Source: an uncultured Burkholderiales bacterium (lineage in GTDB: Bacteria > Pseudomonadota > Gammaproteobacteria > Burkholderiales > Burkholderiaceae_C). Taken from it: DNA of 37,077 nt. Of this stretch, positions 29,993-37,077 are shown piece by piece. Positions within the stretch are counted from its first letter, which is position 1. The number at the start of each line of letters is the position of its first letter. The notes below the pieces were generated by a model. It did no database searches. It saw only the letters and a program-made list of their open reading frames with translations, and was not told where the DNA came from. The stretch spans positions 1 through 37,077 of the forward strand of contig CAIVGK010000017.1 of assembly GCA_903905475.1 (NCBI GenBank). Direction: 5' to 3'. The position numbers were made by a program, and so were the translations under genes.

Positions 29993-31815
29993 CCTCCCTT
30001 CTGGCCCGGCCCCTGTGCTGGTTTCGGTGCTGGAACCGCTCACGGGTGGCTCGCCGTCGTCAGCGACTGGGCCGCGACGTGGCCGCGCGCAATGCTGACT
30101 ACGACGCCTGGATCCGTCTTTACGACGTGCTCGACGATGAGACGCGCTCGCGCATGCGCCGGCGCATCGCGAGGCTGCCGAACGCCCCGCTGATCTCGGT
30201 CGTGATGCCGACCCACAACGCCGACCCGACCTGGTTGCGCGCCGCGATCGATTCGGTCCGAACCCAGATCTATCCGCGCTGGGAGCTGTGCATCGCGGAC
30301 GATGCGTCGACCTCGCCCGAGTCGCTCGCCGCACTGCGCTCATGCACCGCGGGAGATCCGCGCATCAAGACAGCGTTCCGCCGAGAAAACGGGCACATCT
30401 CGGCGGCGTCGAACACGGCGCTGGGGCTGGCCACCGGCGAATGGATCGTGTTGATGGACCACGACGATCTGCTGTCGGAGCACGCGCTGTTCTGGATCGC
30501 TGACGCGATCGCGAAGCACCCCGGCGCAGCGCTGATCTATTCGGACGAGGACAAGGTCAGCGAGGTCGGGGTTCGTTCAGACCCGTATTTCAAGCCGGAC
30601 TGGAACATCGATCTTTTCTTTTCGCAGAACCTGTTCTCGCACCTCGGCGCCTACAAGGCCGAGCTCGTGCGCAAGGTGGGCGGCTTCCGGTTGGGGCTGG
30701 AGGGCTCACAAGACTACGACCTTGTGCTGCGTTGCCTGGCGCACGTGGGCGCCGCCGAGATCCATCACGTGCCCAAGGTGCTGTATCACTGGCGTGTGCC
30801 TGCTCACAGCGCGGCCCGTTCAAACGACGTGAAACCCTGTGCCGTGGTCGCTGGGGAGACAGCGCTGAACGAGCATTTCCTGCGCGAGGGCATCCGCGGC
30901 CGAGCTGAGCATGTGGGTCCCGGCTACCGGGTGCGCTACGAATTGCCCGCCGAGCTGCCGCTGGTCTCGCTCGTCATACCCACGCGCAACGCGTTGAAAC
31001 TGGTGAGGAAGTGTGTCGAAAGCATCGTCGAACACACGACCTACGGCCGCTACGAAATCATCCTCGTCGACAACGGTTCGGACGAGCCCGAGGCACTGGC
31101 GTACTTCGCGGCGATGCAATCCGCTGGCGTGCTGCGCATCATCCGGGACGACGGCGAATTCAACTACTCGGCACTGAACAACCGTGCCGTGTCGGCGGCC
31201 CTTGGCGAAGTCGTCGGCCTGGTCAACAACGACATCGAGGTGCTTTCGCCTGAGTGGTTGTCGGAGATGGTGTCCATTGCCTTGCAGCCCGGTGTTGGCG
31301 CGGTGGGCGCCCGACTTTGGTACCCGAACCGCACGCTGCAGCACGGCGGCGTCGTTCTTGGCGTGGGTGGCGGGGCGAACCACGCCCACAGGGGCCTGCC
31401 CGAAGGCAGTGGTGGCCACTGCGGTCGCGCGTGCCTCATCCAGTCTTTTTCAGCGGTGACAGGCGCGTGCCTGGTCATCCGAAAGGATCGCTTTGAAGCC
31501 GTGCAGGGCCTCAACGAGACCGACCTGAAGGTGGAGTTCAACGATGTCGACTTCTGCCTGCGGCTGCGCGAGGCGGGCCTGCGCAACGTGTGGACGCCGT
31601 ACGCCGAACTGGTTCACCACGAGTCGGCCACGCGCGGCACCGACAACACGCCGGGCAAGCACAAGCGCCACGCCGCAGAGGTCGACTACCTGATCCGGCG
31701 CTGGGGCAAGTCACTTGCGTTCGACCCAGCCTACAGCCCCAACCTCACCTTGAGGGCCGAGGACTTCAGCTACGCGTGGCCGCCGCGCGTGCGCCCCGAC
31801 ATGCAGCTCGATTGA
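29989..31815 (+). CDS. Glycosyltransferase with two GT2-type domains
   Basis: First GT-A domain PLISVVMPTHNADPTWLRAAIDSV...MDHDDLL...YSDEDK; second LVSLVIPTRNALKLVRKCVESIVEHTTYGRYEIILVDNGSD...; ATGA overlap with the ABC transporter gene. Confidence 0.93.
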   Translation: MTSLLARPLCWFRCWNRSRVARRRQRLGRDVAARNADYDAWIRLYDVLDDETRSRMRRRIARLPNAPLISVVMPTHNADPTWLRAAIDSVRTQIYPRWELCIADDASTSPESLAALRSCTAGDPRIKTAFRRENGHISAASNTALGLATGEWIVLMDHDDLLSEHALFWIADAIAKHPGAALIYSDEDKVSEVGVRSDPYFKPDWNIDLFFSQNLFSHLGAYKAELVRKVGGFRLGLEGSQDYDLVLRCLAHVGAAEIHHVPKVLYHWRVPAHSAARSNDVKPCAVVAGETALNEHFLREGIRGRAEHVGPGYRVRYELPAELPLVSLVIPTRNALKLVRKCVESIVEHTTYGRYEIILVDNGSDEPEALAYFAAMQSAGVLRIIRDDGEFNYSALNNRAVSAALGEVVGLVNNDIEVLSPEWLSEMVSIALQPGVGAVGARLWYPNRTLQHGGVVLGVGGGANHAHRGLPEGSGGHCGRACLIQSFSAVTGACLVIRKDRFEAVQGLNETDLKVEFNDVDFCLRLREAGLRNVWTPYAELVHHESATRGTDNTPGKHKRHAAEVDYLIRRWGKSLAFDPAYSPNLTLRAEDFSYAWPPRVRPDMQLD

Positions 31816-31818
31816 GCC

Positions 31819-31899
31819 GCCGCTGGCTCACCCCACGAGCCAGTGCTCGGGGGTACTGAACCGGTTCCCGTGAAGCGCGTGCCTGGCGCGGCCTCATGG
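31819..31899. repeat. Structured direct repeat, copy 1
   Basis: First 34 bp (31819-31852, GCCGCTGGCTCACCCCACGAGCCAGTGCTCGGGG) identical to 34698-34731, followed by about 47 bp of diverged but alignable sequence; contains CTGGCTC-ACCCCAC-GAGCCAG hairpin. Confidence 0.9.
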
Positions 31900-32159
31900 C
31901 CACTTCGACGTGATAACGAGCAGCGATGCCGATCACGGCCAGGGCCAGGGCCAGATCGTCGCCACGGAGCAACAGCCGTTTGTCGGGCACGAACTCGAAA
32001 GTCGAGCGAGGCCCGCATCGGCCACGCATCGAACGGACGCTGATGCGTGGCATGGTGTCCACCGGTGGGCGGTTTGAAGAGCCCGACCGGTGAACAACGG
32101 CGCCAGCCAGACCGGGCGACAGTTGCTCGCCAGGCTGGTTGGCAGAGGTGAACCCCAGT

Positions 32160-34505
32160 TCAGTTGAGGATCTTCCCAAGCCGGATCAATTGGGTCTCGC
32201 CGCCGCCGGCGTGGTCATTCACGCCGTCATTGTCCGTGACCACCAGCACCTCGCCATTCGGCAGCACGGCCACGCCCTCGACCTTCTCCAGCACCAGTCC
32301 ACCGGGTGCGCGCAGGTCGTCCATCAGGTCATGGACCAAGGTCTTGGACAGCATGTCGCCATCGACCTTGCCGGTCAGGTCGATGCGGTAGAGGCGCTTG
32401 ATCCTCGCGTCGGGTCCCGCCTGGTTGTCTCGCTCGGCCACGAGGAAGCGGTTACTGCCAATGGAAGTGATCTCCGACAGCCCCACCCAGCCCGCGTTCG
32501 GCGACGCCACCCGATCGAGCGGATAGCTCACGAATGCCCATGTCTCGGTTGTCAGATCGAAAACGCCGATCAGTGGATCTGCGCTCTTGTTCGCAGGATC
32601 CCAGGAGCGCTGGATCGCCACCACGAGCTTGCCCTCGTGTTCGGCCACCCCCTCGAACCCATAGCGTGCCTGCATGTCGCTCATCTCGGCAGGCAGCGCG
32701 ATCACGCGCTCGATCACGCCCGTGGCAGACACCTTGAAAACGAGGTTGGCCGAAGTGATTTTTTTCTCACTCTCGTAGGCCGTTTTCGACCCCGCGCCCT
32801 CGGACGCCACCCAGAAGCCGCCGCCGGATGCGATCGCGATGCCTTCAGGGTCCAGGTTGACGCTTCCGTCCGCGTTGATCAGCTTCACCATGTCGACCTG
32901 ATCGAAGGCCTGGTTGTCTGCCGCGGCTGGAAGGGTTGCGCCGAAAGCTGCAAACACGTTGTCAGTGTCCTTGATGGTGATCTCGCTCTTGAGCACCGCA
33001 GGTTGCTGGCTGACATCGATCGAAAAGATTCGGTTGCTCCTGAAGAAGCTGTCGTCGACGGCGTAGACCGTCTTGCCATCCGCGGCGGCCGCCATGCCCG
33101 ACAACGCTGACCAGGGGATGGGCGTGCCATCGCTGCGGTCGGCCGATTGCAGGGTTGGGTAGGCGGCGGCTGATTTCTGATAGGCGTAGATGTTCAACGC
33201 CGCACGCGCTGGCAGGGCGCGGTCGTCAGTCTCGCTGGCGGAAATCACCAAGCCACGCGAAGGAATGGTCAGCAGACCCTCGGGGCTGATGGCACCGGGC
33301 AGGGCCTGCTTGAATGCGGGCCTGGTCGGATTGGTCATGTCGTAGACCGCCAGCAGGCTCGAGCGCTCGGACGCAACGAACAGGTAGTCGGTCGATCCGA
33401 ACCTCGCAAAGGCCACGTTCTCTGGCTCGTTGCCCTTGGCGTCAGATCGGCGGTCGTTGTAGTGGCCAAGACGCACCGCCAGATGGTCCAAGGCCGAGCC
33501 TGAGTCGTATTCGACCGTGCCATCGGTGCTCATCACCGTGAAGCTGCGGCTACCGCCGGCCAGATCACCTTCGTTGGCAATCGCAAACCGCGTCTTCGAT
33601 ATCCACGTCACGCCGTCGGGCTCACGCAGCCGGTCCGCCTGGGTCTCGACGAGCGACACCTGGTTGGCACGCTCGTCCGTCAAGTCGACCTGGGTCAACG
33701 TGACCTTGCCCGCACTGAAATGCCGAGTCACCGCGCCGCTCTTGAGGTCGACCAGCGCGATGTGGTTATTTTCCTGGAGCGTCACGACGGCGACGTTGTC
33801 CTCGTTGATTGCTACGTACTCGGGTTCGGGGTCGCTGCCGAACAGCGTCGCGATGCCGGTCAGGTCCACGTTGCGCGTCCGCCAGGTTGCCGGGGCCCCG
33901 GCCACATCGACGATCTTGAGGCTGCCCGCAGGGAGCTGGGGGAGTGCCCCGCCGTTGACGCCCTCGTCGCGCTGGTTCTCGATCACCACGGCCACGTACT
34001 TGCCGTCTTTGCTGACGGCCACCGAATCCGGTTGCCCGCCGAGGTCAATCTCGACCACCGTCTGGCGCGTCGCGATATCGATCACCACCAGCTTGCCGGC
34101 TGGGCTGACGAAGCTGGCCGAGGTGTCCACGACCACCATCGCGTAAGCACCGAGCACCGCCACCGACGTCGGCTCCCCGCCGACGGCCAGCGCGCCCAGA
34201 GGTTTCGGACTGGCGGGATCGGTGATGTCCACGAAACCGACTTCACCCTTGGGGCTGTTGGTGTAGATCACGGTCAGGCCGTCTGTGCTCGCCGCTGCGA
34301 TCTCGGCGGCCGTTGCGACATCGGATTCGCAAGACGAGCCCAACTGCGCGCAGATCGGAAACGATGCAACTCGGTTGAAGTTCATCGTGGCGTCAGGCTT
34401 GGAGAGCACCGGCCCGTCCGAACCACCATCGCCGCAACCTTGAATCGACAGAGCCAGCAACGAAGCCGCCGCAACGGCGGTGAGGGAAGTCTTGAATTTG
34501 GACAT
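32160..34505 (-). CDS. Lipoprotein with beta-propeller-like N-terminal region and phytase-like esterase C-terminal domain
   Basis: Lipobox LALSIQGCGDGG; propeller-like repeats; phytase-like motifs LDPEGIAIASGGGFWVASEGAG, GFEGVAEHEGKLVVAIQRSW, KVEGVAVLPNGEVLVVTDND. Confidence 0.85.
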   Translation of the reverse strand: MSKFKTSLTAVAAASLLALSIQGCGDGGSDGPVLSKPDATMNFNRVASFPICAQLGSSCESDVATAAEIAAASTDGLTVIYTNSPKGEVGFVDITDPASPKPLGALAVGGEPTSVAVLGAYAMVVVDTSASFVSPAGKLVVIDIATRQTVVEIDLGGQPDSVAVSKDGKYVAVVIENQRDEGVNGGALPQLPAGSLKIVDVAGAPATWRTRNVDLTGIATLFGSDPEPEYVAINEDNVAVVTLQENNHIALVDLKSGAVTRHFSAGKVTLTQVDLTDERANQVSLVETQADRLREPDGVTWISKTRFAIANEGDLAGGSRSFTVMSTDGTVEYDSGSALDHLAVRLGHYNDRRSDAKGNEPENVAFARFGSTDYLFVASERSSLLAVYDMTNPTRPAFKQALPGAISPEGLLTIPSRGLVISASETDDRALPARAALNIYAYQKSAAAYPTLQSADRSDGTPIPWSALSGMAAAADGKTVYAVDDSFFRSNRIFSIDVSQQPAVLKSEITIKDTDNVFAAFGATLPAAADNQAFDQVDMVKLINADGSVNLDPEGIAIASGGGFWVASEGAGSKTAYESEKKITSANLVFKVSATGVIERVIALPAEMSDMQARYGFEGVAEHEGKLVVAIQRSWDPANKSADPLIGVFDLTTETWAFVSYPLDRVASPNAGWVGLSEITSIGSNRFLVAERDNQAGPDARIKRLYRIDLTGKVDGDMLSKTLVHDLMDDLRAPGGLVLEKVEGVAVLPNGEVLVVTDNDGVNDHAGGGETQLIRLGKILN

Positions 34506-34556
34506 GACCGGAAGCCTTCTATGGTTTGAGGACGAGATGAGACCCGGCGTCAGCTT

Positions 34557-34596
34557 ATGAAGGCAATTTGACGTGGTGATGACGGCCCCATGACGC
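34557..34596 (-). promoter_or_regulatory. Candidate Pho-box array (four 7-bp units at 11-bp spacing)
   Basis: Minus strand: GCGTCAT GGGG CCGTCAT CACC ACGTCAA ATTG CCTTCAT, unit starts (plus coordinates) 34590, 34579, 34568, 34557; 52 nt from the lipoprotein start codon. Confidence 0.6.
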
Positions 34597-34697
34597 TTCG
34601 CAGGCCGCGTGATGGGCGGGCAGGCGCAGTTCGCATGGCCGTTTGGCGACGATGGCCATGACGGACCGCTGCCGTGCCTGTTGATCGACGCCGGGCA

Positions 34698-34780
34698 GCC
34701 GCTGGCTCACCCCACGAGCCAGTGCTCGGGGACCCTGAATCGGGGTTCCCGTGGAGCGCGCACTCTGTGCCGCCTCACGG
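34698..34780. repeat. Structured direct repeat, copy 2
   Basis: GCCGCTGGCTCACCCCACGAGCCAGTGCTCGGGG identical to copy 1, then diverged CTGAA.CGG..TTCCCGTG.AGCGCG...GCCTCA.GG. Confidence 0.9.
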
Positions 34781-34861
34781 TCCGTTTGGTGTGGTTCCCG
34801 GCGGTCTCCCCGACGCTGACCGCCACGTTCGCGCCGCGCTCGCAGCGCCCGTCAGGCGAAC

Positions 34862-36529
34862 TCAGGCCTGCAGTTCAATGTCCCCGACGGCCCAGGTGCA
34901 GCACGCATAGACGAACCCCGCGTCCTTCGATCGGGCGTCGATGCCGCACTCCTTGTCGATCTTCACGTCGCCCTTGCACTTGACCTCGCACATGCCACAG
35001 CTGCCCACGCGGCAGCTGTATTCGATTTCGAGGCCATTGGCTTCGGCCAGTTCCAGCAGCGAGATCTGCTCGTCGGTCTCCACGGTGAGTCCCGAGTTGG
35101 CGAACGTCACCCGGTGCGTGGGTCCGGTGAATTGCAGCGTTTTCTTGCGGCTGGTGGTGCCCTGCGCAGAGCGGCCTGACCCGAAGCTTTCCGAGTGCAG
35201 CCGGCCGAGGTCGAAGCCCATGCCCTGGAGGAGCTGCGTCACGCTGTGGGAGAACGGTTCGGGTCCGCACAGGAACACGTGGCGCTCATCGATGTCAGGC
35301 ACAAAGGCGCGCAACATCTCGGCGCTGACCCGACCCCGAAATCCATCCCACGCATCGGTGTCCGGCACCTCAGCGGTGAGCGTGACGCCCACACCGAAGC
35401 GAGGGTTGCGGGCAGACCAGAGTTCGAGTTCCTTGCGAAAGATGATGTCCGGCGCTGACTTGAACGACGCCAGCAACTTCACATCCACATCGGCGCCCGT
35501 GTCGTTGATCCACCGGCCCATGGAAACGATGGGCGTGATGCCGCTGCCGGCCCCGATGAACAGCATCTTGCTGCACGGGTACTCGAAGCAGCTGAACTTG
35601 CCGTGTGGCCCCTTGACGCTCAGGCGGTCTCCCAGCTTGACCTCGTCGCAAAACCAGTTCGAGACCAGCCCACCGGGCACGCGCTTGATCGTGACTTCAA
35701 GCAGGTAGGGTCGCGAGGGGCTCGATGACATGCTGTACGAGCGTTTGACCTCCTCGCCCTGGATGCTCAGGACAAAGGTCACAAACTGCCCGGGGCGGTA
35801 GGAGAACAGCAAAGGCTGTTCGCCCGCCAGCCGAAAGGTCTTGGTGTCGGTGGCCTCATCGATGATGTCCACCACCTTCAGCACGGTCGTGCCCTCGGAC
35901 CACAGCCCGATCGACGCTCGCTCGTCCACCAGGTTCGCCAGCAGCGGACTGGCCGGCGGTGCGGGCGGCGTGTAGAAGAAATCGGGGATTTCCGCGAGCT
36001 CCTCCAACGCCCCATCCGCGCTTTCCGCAGGCTTGGCCACGCCGCTGAGGACAAACTCCAGCCGGTAACCCGGCAAGTCCACCTGCGCACCGTCCCACAG
36101 CGCCAGCGGCGCTTTGCCCGTGAGCTTCTTGCGGTCCAGCAGGACGCCGACATCCTGGTCCAGTGACTTCACATAAACACGTCCAGCCACCTTGAGCACC
36201 ACCAGGTGGTACATGCCCAGCCGGTGCGACTCCAGTTGCAAGTCGGCGGTCGGGTGGCGACCGATGAGTGTTTCGGCTCCGAGCCTGTGCAGCGCGATCT
36301 CGTGAACCACGACGCCGTTTTTCAGCACGACCATCTTGTCGCCGGGATCGCTGTCGAGCGGTGCGCCCTCGAACAGGCACTTCATCCAATGCTCGGCGCC
36401 GTGATCGATGCTGGCGGCCGGCGATGCCGTCAGATCATGCCTGCGTCGCTCGAGGGCCGAGATCGAGTTCTGTCCGAAAAAAAACGCCCTGCGCCAGAAC
36501 TGGTTGTCATCAAGGATCGTGTCGTCCAT
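34862..36529 (-). CDS. FHA domain + FAD/NAD(P) ferredoxin-reductase module + plant-type 2Fe-2S ferredoxin fusion
   Basis: FHA-like ETLIGRHPTADLQLESHRLGMYHLVVLKVAGRVYVKSLD; FNR-type RSYSMSSSP and FIGAGSGITPIVSM; C-terminal CRVGSCGMCEVKCKG...YACCTW 2Fe-2S motif. Alternative TTG start at 36556. Confidence 0.92.
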   Translation of the reverse strand: MDDTILDDNQFWRRAFFFGQNSISALERRRHDLTASPAASIDHGAEHWMKCLFEGAPLDSDPGDKMVVLKNGVVVHEIALHRLGAETLIGRHPTADLQLESHRLGMYHLVVLKVAGRVYVKSLDQDVGVLLDRKKLTGKAPLALWDGAQVDLPGYRLEFVLSGVAKPAESADGALEELAEIPDFFYTPPAPPASPLLANLVDERASIGLWSEGTTVLKVVDIIDEATDTKTFRLAGEQPLLFSYRPGQFVTFVLSIQGEEVKRSYSMSSSPSRPYLLEVTIKRVPGGLVSNWFCDEVKLGDRLSVKGPHGKFSCFEYPCSKMLFIGAGSGITPIVSMGRWINDTGADVDVKLLASFKSAPDIIFRKELELWSARNPRFGVGVTLTAEVPDTDAWDGFRGRVSAEMLRAFVPDIDERHVFLCGPEPFSHSVTQLLQGMGFDLGRLHSESFGSGRSAQGTTSRKKTLQFTGPTHRVTFANSGLTVETDEQISLLELAEANGLEIEYSCRVGSCGMCEVKCKGDVKIDKECGIDARSKDAGFVYACCTWAVGDIELQA

Positions 36530-36576
36530 CAGCGTGGTTCCCTCAGAAGCAGTCAAGTCGGGCCATGTCGGGGGCT

Positions 36577-37077
36577 TCAGCGGCCCATCACGGCATCGCG
36601 CATGCTTTGGAGAACTTCCAGCATGCCGTCGTGCTCTTTTTGCGAAACGTTCAGTTCTTCCAGGGTCTCGCTGAACAACTGCAACACGCGGTCGAAGTGC
36701 TGGTCGTTGAGGCCCAGCTTGTCGATCAGGGCGCCGTGGGCCTTGCGCAAATCCTGCCCGTTGAACTGATAAGGGCCACCAAAGGCCATGGACAGAAAGT
36801 TTTTCTGTTTGATCCGCTGGCCCGCCATGTCGATGTCTTCAAAAAATCGGCCCACCAGGTCGTCAGCCAGCACCTTGTTGTAAAAAACGTCGACCGCGAT
36901 TTCCATGGCTTTGCTGCCACCCACGCGCTCATACAGAGGCAGATCCATCAACTGGAAATAATCGCCGCCCTTGGCCGCGATGCTGTCGGTGCCCCAGTCA
37001 ATGGATTTTTCTGCCTTCTTCATCAGGGGAATGTGTTTGGAGCACTGGATATAGGCCTCCTCGACCTCCACCATCAC
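36577..37077 (-). CDS. Group 1-like truncated hemoglobin preceded by the C-terminal tail of a pyridoxamine-phosphate-oxidase-like domain (partial; runs off the window)
   Basis: VEVEEAYIQCSKHIPLMKK is typical of the PNPOx-like C-terminal tail; LYERVGGSKAMEIAVDVFYNKVLADDLVGRFFEDIDMAGQRIKQKNFLSMAFGG...LRKAHGALIDKLGLNDQHFDRV is a truncated hemoglobin. Confidence 0.88.
   Translation of the reverse strand: MMVEVEEAYIQCSKHIPLMKKAEKSIDWGTDSIAAKGGDYFQLMDLPLYERVGGSKAMEIAVDVFYNKVLADDLVGRFFEDIDMAGQRIKQKNFLSMAFGGPYQFNGQDLRKAHGALIDKLGLNDQHFDRVLQLFSETLEELNVSQKEHDGMLEVLQSMRDAVMGR

Follow-up and report, generated by a model that had tools for sequence, protein, structure and literature searches.

Does the four-domain reductase encoded at the end of a Burkholderiales contig serve the truncated hemoglobin encoded beside it, and if so, in which reaction? 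We investigated this question starting from the window, that is, the whole stretch of 37,077 nucleotides analysed here, which is the entire contig C17 of a draft genome (2.86 Mb, 307 contigs) of an uncultured Burkholderiales bacterium. The features on which the argument draws are collected in Table 1.

Domains of the fusion protein and of the reductase

Firstly, we assigned the domains of the reductase. Both genes are found on the minus strand at the right end of C17 and, as the original prediction stated, are about 47 bp apart, counted from the globin stop to the ATG. Pfam recognised FHA, FAD_binding_6 (2e-16), NAD_binding_1 (1.7e-14) and Fer2 (6e-12) in this order, every match being above its gathering score, which bears out the predicted FHA-FAD-NAD(P)-[2Fe-2S] chain on one polypeptide. 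The FHA match of the window protein reaches 3.9e-5 (24.4 bits for a gathering score of 20.7) and is stronger in the reductases of its relatives (2.5e-15 and 6e-11); judged from these profile matches, the FHA fold assignment is sound. The FAD (RxYS), NAD and four-cysteine [2Fe-2S] motifs are all present, and the cysteines (515, 520, 523 and 552) are invariant across 33 reductase sequences. A structure model of the reductase matched the FAD/NAD domain of a Vibrio NO dioxygenase (4eh1, TMt 0.89), the mean pLDDT of the models being near 75. The open reading frame (34862-36556) would encode 564 aa if translation started at the in-frame TTG at 36556; the ATG at 36529, located behind GAGGGA, appears the likelier start.

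Secondly, we established the class of the hemoglobin. The upstream reading frame matches Bac_globin (Pfam, 9e-18, 65 for a threshold of 21 bits), its closest solved chains are those of cyanobacterial GlbN (5e-28), and Chlamydomonas THB1 is also matched (3e-23). The family match, HisF8, TyrB10 and a distal Gln all place it among the group 1 truncated hemoglobins (trHbN), the class that had been predicted for the end of this gene.

Thirdly, we completed the upstream gene, whose reading frame is open at the contig end. When the contigs of the genome were searched with a profile of the fusion, the absent part, comprising the N-terminal 249 codons, was retrieved from contig C67. The end of the window and the start of C67 share 141 identical bases, and we infer that this is the overlap typical between neighbouring short-read contigs. 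Joining the two contigs gives a protein of 368 aa, composed of a PNPOx-type split barrel and the globin, with 62% identity to P0005, a complete relative; this length depends on the contig overlap, while the claims on the globin and on the pairing need the window part alone. In P0005, PNPOx_N (1.2e-14, 55.2 for a gathering score of 28.1 bits) is found together with Bac_globin (2.9e-17), so that the split barrel, originally guessed from 46 residues, proves to be correct. Scored with the FMN-type NCBIfam family TIGR04025, the split barrel of P0005 obtains 93.1 bits, below the 170-bit cut-off. The model of P0005 matches the split-barrel structures 2htd and 7kq2, and its globin part matches THB1 and M. 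tuberculosis HbN.

The extension into C67 also revealed what lies upstream of the pair: divergent recC and recB genes. A Ser/Thr kinase or phosphatase, which the original prediction proposed to look for beyond the contig end, did not appear; neither adjoins the window pair, nor does an Rrf2 gene or another gene for an NO-responsive regulator. A promoter scan gave no match, and terminator-like sites were found only within genes and were set aside.

Table 1. Features of the gene pair and of the island that carries it. Positions are those of the window unless contig C67 is named.
Feature	Position	Strand	Remarks
Split-barrel/truncated-hemoglobin fusion gene, C-terminal 166 aa	36577-37077	-	reading frame open at contig end
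5' remainder of the fusion gene	C67 142-747	-	
PNPOx-type split-barrel tail (VEVEEAYIQCSKHIP...) and linker	36937-37077	-	the 141-bp exact overlap with C67
Group 1 truncated hemoglobin domain	36589-36936	-	Pfam, alignment
Intergenic gap	36530-36576		47 bp, GAGGGA ahead of the ATG
FHA-FAD-NAD-[2Fe-2S] reductase gene	34862-36529	-	555 aa from the ATG at 36529
FHA domain	36074-36271	-	motif Arg and His retained, Ser to Gly, Asn to Val
FAD-binding domain	35594-35878	-	RSYS motif
NAD(P)-binding domain	35240-35560	-	GAGSGITP
Plant-type [2Fe-2S] domain	34895-35098	-	four Cys (515, 520, 523, 552)
Phytase-like/choice-of-anchor I protein	32160-34505	-	on the island
Island, window part	31883-37077		island of about 6 kb, on to about base 932 of C67; no counterpart in same-genus G010
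Repeat copy 1	31816-31909		about 65-95 bp with hairpin, island boundary
Repeat copy 2	34695-34760		between phytase-like gene and reductase
Repeat copy 3	C67 929-1006 (L074)		

Distribution of the pair and the island that carries it

We then assayed how constantly the two genes occur together. A scan of 84,980 species genomes with the reductase returned two full-length relatives, each forming part of the same pair in a MAG named Methylococcaceae. In 301 genomes of the order of those MAGs, which their names suggest is Methylococcales, we counted 36 fusions that are complete or nearly so, spread over 34 genomes. In a 399-genome sample of the phylum, the fusion was found at E<=1e-40 only in the window's genome, and no other full fusion was among the matches listed for a 369-genome sample of the class. 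Otherwise the pair was found here only in methanotrophs.

Next to 34 of the 36 fusions, a gene of the FHA-reductase family stands on the same strand, adjoining or one gene off. In seven loci a gene intervenes; it encodes a further Fer2-FNR reductase except in one locus, where it is a fragment broken off the FHA reductase. The two exceptions are L123, where the contig ends just past the fusion, and L135, where only a Fer2-first reductase of a different FNR type is found. The neighbours beyond the pair vary between loci. Homologs that rarely neighbour each other, the outcome that would have spoken against the predicted pairing, were thus not what the neighbourhood check found. Two gene orders occur. 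In what we name type A, the fusion comes first and the FHA reductase lies downstream (the window and 22 loci, the reductase being seen in 20 of the 22), while in type B, likewise named here, the reductase comes first (14 loci, L137-L150). The tree distances of the two proteins are correlated over 33 loci (r=0.95), a value that none of 5000 permutations reached, and remain so within type A (r=0.88). This agreement of the trees points to co-inheritance. The pairing of fusion and reductase is strongly supported, and we are confident, if short of certain, that the two genes constitute a dedicated reductase-hemoglobin pair.

Several related arrangements were seen in the same searches. In L132, L133 and L134, a cluster is composed of a single trHb, a Fer2-first reductase, the fusion, a second Fer2-first reductase and the FHA reductase. 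Beside or near four pairs (L119 6007-6771, L135 10862-11494, L142 194-871, L150 5132-5779), HTH regulators of a single sequence cluster are encoded; they are weakly SufR-like, below cut-off in the two that were scanned, and are candidate redox-responsive regulators. Tandem arrangements, in which an open reading frame of about 270-300 aa matches truncated hemoglobin twice (L046, L049, L057, L060, L061, L065 and L067), occur across several families of the class. Lone split-barrel relatives are found at L075 (7852-9232, genome G379), where the next gene is for an Rrf2 regulator that matches NsrR best, though below cut-off, and at L081 (4995-5606), on a Paenibacillus plasmid, where carrier-protein, adenylation and P450 genes belong to the same cluster.

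We also compared the surroundings of the pair with the corresponding region in the same genus. In G010, a glycosyltransferase gene matching window positions 30078-31882 is followed directly by DNA that matches C67 from base 933; this empty site implies that the window's genome has about 6 kb more at this place, comprising the phytase-like gene and the gene pair. RecC, encoded beyond the junction, is 87-91% identical in three same-genus genomes, and a full-length relative of the reductase is absent in fourteen relatives of the genus. The phytase-like protein (781 aa, combining choice-of-anchor I and phytase-like parts) has no close full-length relative in the genus either. The hairpin-containing repeat is present in three copies only in the genome, and these bound inserted segments. 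The same hairpin repeat is found upstream of recC in the relatives G010, G005 and G002. Both protein trees place the window copy inside methanotroph type A, with support of 0.69-0.98 at the nearby nodes. The pair was probably acquired by the window's genome, and transfer from a methanotroph-like donor would be the simplest reading of the sequences. We considered whether the contig was a binning error and rejected this, as this contig contains DNA that matches a same-genus genome at 83-92% identity, and such a match is also found at the other island junction.

Heme pocket, FHA domain and known systems

Helix positions of the globin were assigned by alignment with GlbN and THB1. In the numbering of the 368-aa protein, the heme pocket of the window contains TyrB10 (Y268), GlnE7 (Q289), LysE10 (K292), GlnE11 (Q293), PheE15 (F296) and HisF8 (H316). 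TyrB10, LysE10, GlnE11, PheE15 and HisF8 are invariant in the 23 type-A globins, and E7 is Gln in 19 of them. LysE10 is the sixth heme ligand of THB1, THB2 and THB4 (PMC7082302) and, by analogy, could slow O2 binding. In type B, HisF8 is replaced by Tyr (12 of 14) or Leu (one) and is His in a single protein; TyrB10 is also lost in ten. Most type-B reductases give no FHA match, the FHA domain being kept in L137 and L138, which are the type-B branches nearest type A. Roughly, then, the loss of heme ligands goes along with the loss of FHA.

In the FHA domain of the window, Arg100 is kept, the Ser of the SxxH motif is Gly114 and the Asn of the NG motif is Val136; the Ser position is mostly Gly or Ala in type-A relatives. 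The two substitutions argue against phosphopeptide docking by the window protein, and of the docking or regulatory role originally proposed, a phosphothreonine dock is not supported, although the domain may dock a partner in another manner. No kinase was recognised beside type-A pairs.

We compared the pair with described systems. In Legionella, a trHbN-ferredoxin reductase operon was proposed for NO detoxification in 2005 (PMC1274295), and glbN-lpg2536 of Legionella pneumophila is the predicted sole NsrR target (PMC1274295; NsrR control also in PMC3820574). As in that operon, a group 1 trHb gene is followed in the window by a ferredoxin-reductase-type gene on the same strand, here after a 47-bp gap; compared by description, the Legionella cyanoglobin is mentioned with neither a fused split barrel nor FHA, and the NsrR control predicted there is not seen for the window pair. 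The original view of the operon as undescribed consequently holds in part: the operon idea was known from Legionella, and what appears new is the two domain fusions, since no relevant paper on a split-barrel/globin fusion, or on FHA with such reductases, was found in open-access full text.

Flavohemoglobin (Hmp) combines a globin with a FAD/NAD reductase module that shares the fold class of the window reductase, but it does so in a single polypeptide whose globin is 3/3 and which lacks [2Fe-2S]. The window pair consists of two proteins encoded by separate genes; its globin is 2/2, and it has a [2Fe-2S] domain and two domains more. The raphidophyte NR2-2/2HbN is a nitrate reductase-trHbN fusion, joining trHbN to an FNR-type reductase (PMC3820574). 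The pair is like NR2-2/2HbN and THB1 in coupling a group 1 trHb to an FNR-type reductase in connection with nitrate metabolism, and has LysE10 as THB1 does; those proteins are eukaryotic, with other fused domains, and the nitrate link here is one of neighbourhood in some relatives. The FAD-NAD-[2Fe-2S] order is that of GbcB and other FNR-[2Fe-2S] reductases, but the window reductase scores 324.8 bits in the GbcB family (NF058606), below the cut-off of 500, and has an additional N-terminal FHA. For the split barrel, the closest named family is that of the MSMEG_1061-type PPOX flavoproteins (TIGR04025), from which it differs by its sub-cut-off score and its fusion to a globin. The same four-domain architecture, FHA-FNR-Fer2, is encoded on plasmids of Leptolyngbya boryana, at 32-35% identity, where it has no globin neighbour and lies beside genes for a kinase and for a membrane protein that weakly matches 4Fe-4S. 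In these plasmids (L036 6156-9365, L037 6186-9464), FHA-FNR-Fer2, Ser/Thr kinase, membrane protein and CHRD protein form a conserved set.

Reactions that the pair may carry out

To approach the substrate, we analysed the nitrogen-oxide context. Neighbours of this kind occur in a single subclade, made up of four loci, and most other loci show none. In L118 and L034/L076, the genes after the pair encode a NasC-like assimilatory nitrate reductase together with its FAD reductase; a NarK-family transporter lies near the pair in L152; and in L119 (2146-4728, minus strand), a nearby gene combines a heme-NO-binding (HNOB) domain, a NirB-like FAD reductase and a BFD-type [2Fe-2S] domain. No nitrate-linked genes were found next to the window pair. 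The idea that the pair is a general component of nitrate assimilation was rejected, because most loci lack such neighbours. In the host genome, narK-narGHJI is accompanied by a NarXL-type pair; its NarG is closest to those of Variovorax, Aquabacterium and Ideonella (84-79%, plasmid records), which makes a Burkholderiales host probable. A search of the host genome for cd1 nitrite reductase returned nothing above cut-off, and a COX1-family search returned two genes (oxidase or NO reductase).

In the reading that we favour, the main job of the pair may be NO dioxygenation, carried out by two proteins, a proposal to which we give even odds. M. tuberculosis HbN is an established NO dioxygenase (PMC3493545). 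In the proposed cycle, NAD(P)H would deliver hydride to the FAD of the reductase, and single electrons would pass through its [2Fe-2S] centre to the heme, either directly or via the split-barrel flavin of the fusion; the ferrous truncated hemoglobin would bind O2 and convert NO into nitrate, and the reductase would then re-reduce the ferric heme. The net result would be a flavohemoglobin divided between two proteins. The sequences and models give the architectures, the kept pairing, the unbroken cofactor motifs and the acquisition, and from knowledge of the families we infer the electron transfer between the two proteins, the flavin of the split barrel and NO as the substrate. The flavin is putative: the TIGR04025 score is sub-threshold, and the heme-handling barrels HupZ and HutZ are structural neighbours in the model. 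A more elaborate form of the proposal, possible but doubtful as a whole, is an NO detoxifier not described before, in which the split-barrel flavin would relay electrons from [2Fe-2S] to the globin, and in which the sister branch, having lost the heme ligands and mostly FHA and having reversed the gene order, would use the flavin domain alone as acceptor.

Truncated hemoglobins are able to reduce nitrogen oxides at low O2. It is nevertheless unlikely, in our judgement, that the pair reduces hydroxylamine or nitrite instead of oxidising NO. Its main home in methanotrophs and the nitrate-assimilation neighbours of some loci would fit such a role, as would the ammonia-derived hydroxylamine discussed for methanotrophs (PMC8788690) and the reduction of nitrite by THB11 (PMC7082302); but ammonia or methane oxidation is not known here for the Burkholderiales host, and the TyrB10/GlnE11/PheE15 pocket resembles that of NO dioxygenases, although nothing in the evidence sets the two readings cleanly apart.

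The loss of HisF8, and mostly of TyrB10, in type B raises another possibility. Type B keeps the pair despite these losses, which implies some function without ordinary heme chemistry there, and the fusion might be an O2/NO sensor or a redox switch, the reductase setting its redox state and FHA belonging to a signalling route. The Leptolyngbya FHA-FNR-Fer2 proteins adjoin a Ser/Thr kinase, and a kinase gene also lies close to one of the type-B pairs. We nonetheless regard this role as improbable, since neither protein has an output domain, the phosphothreonine-binding residues of FHA are not all retained in the window and in most type-A proteins, and type A shows no variation in the catalytic heme residues.

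That the split barrel binds or degrades heme in the manner of HugZ, HupZ or HutZ, the pair handling heme and not NO, is very improbable: HupZ (7kq2, E 2.3e-8) is the best single structural match of the P0005 model, with HutZ (3tgv) and the putative heme oxygenase 1vl7 as further matches, but FMN- or F420-type split barrels match as well, the sequence match points to the FMN-type subfamily TIGR04025 (below cut-off), and we recognised no genes for heme uptake next to the pairs. There is, finally, little to recommend a reductase that mainly serves another acceptor, such as an oxygenase, its position reflecting co-inheritance only, since the closeness of its reductase part to oxygenase reductases such as that of glycine betaine monooxygenase, GbcB, and the globin-less Leptolyngbya proteins are set against a pairing kept in 34 of 36 loci while the neighbours change, and against close neighbourhoods in which no oxygenase gene was recognised.

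Thus, across many genomes, the evidence points to a single donor for a truncated hemoglobin. The type-B clade, with its degenerate globin, offers a natural control for the role of the heme. NO dioxygenation by the pair would suggest how methanotrophs may cope with NO from nitrate use or ammonia oxidation, and the island indicates that both genes can be transferred together to a nitrate reducer from a different order.
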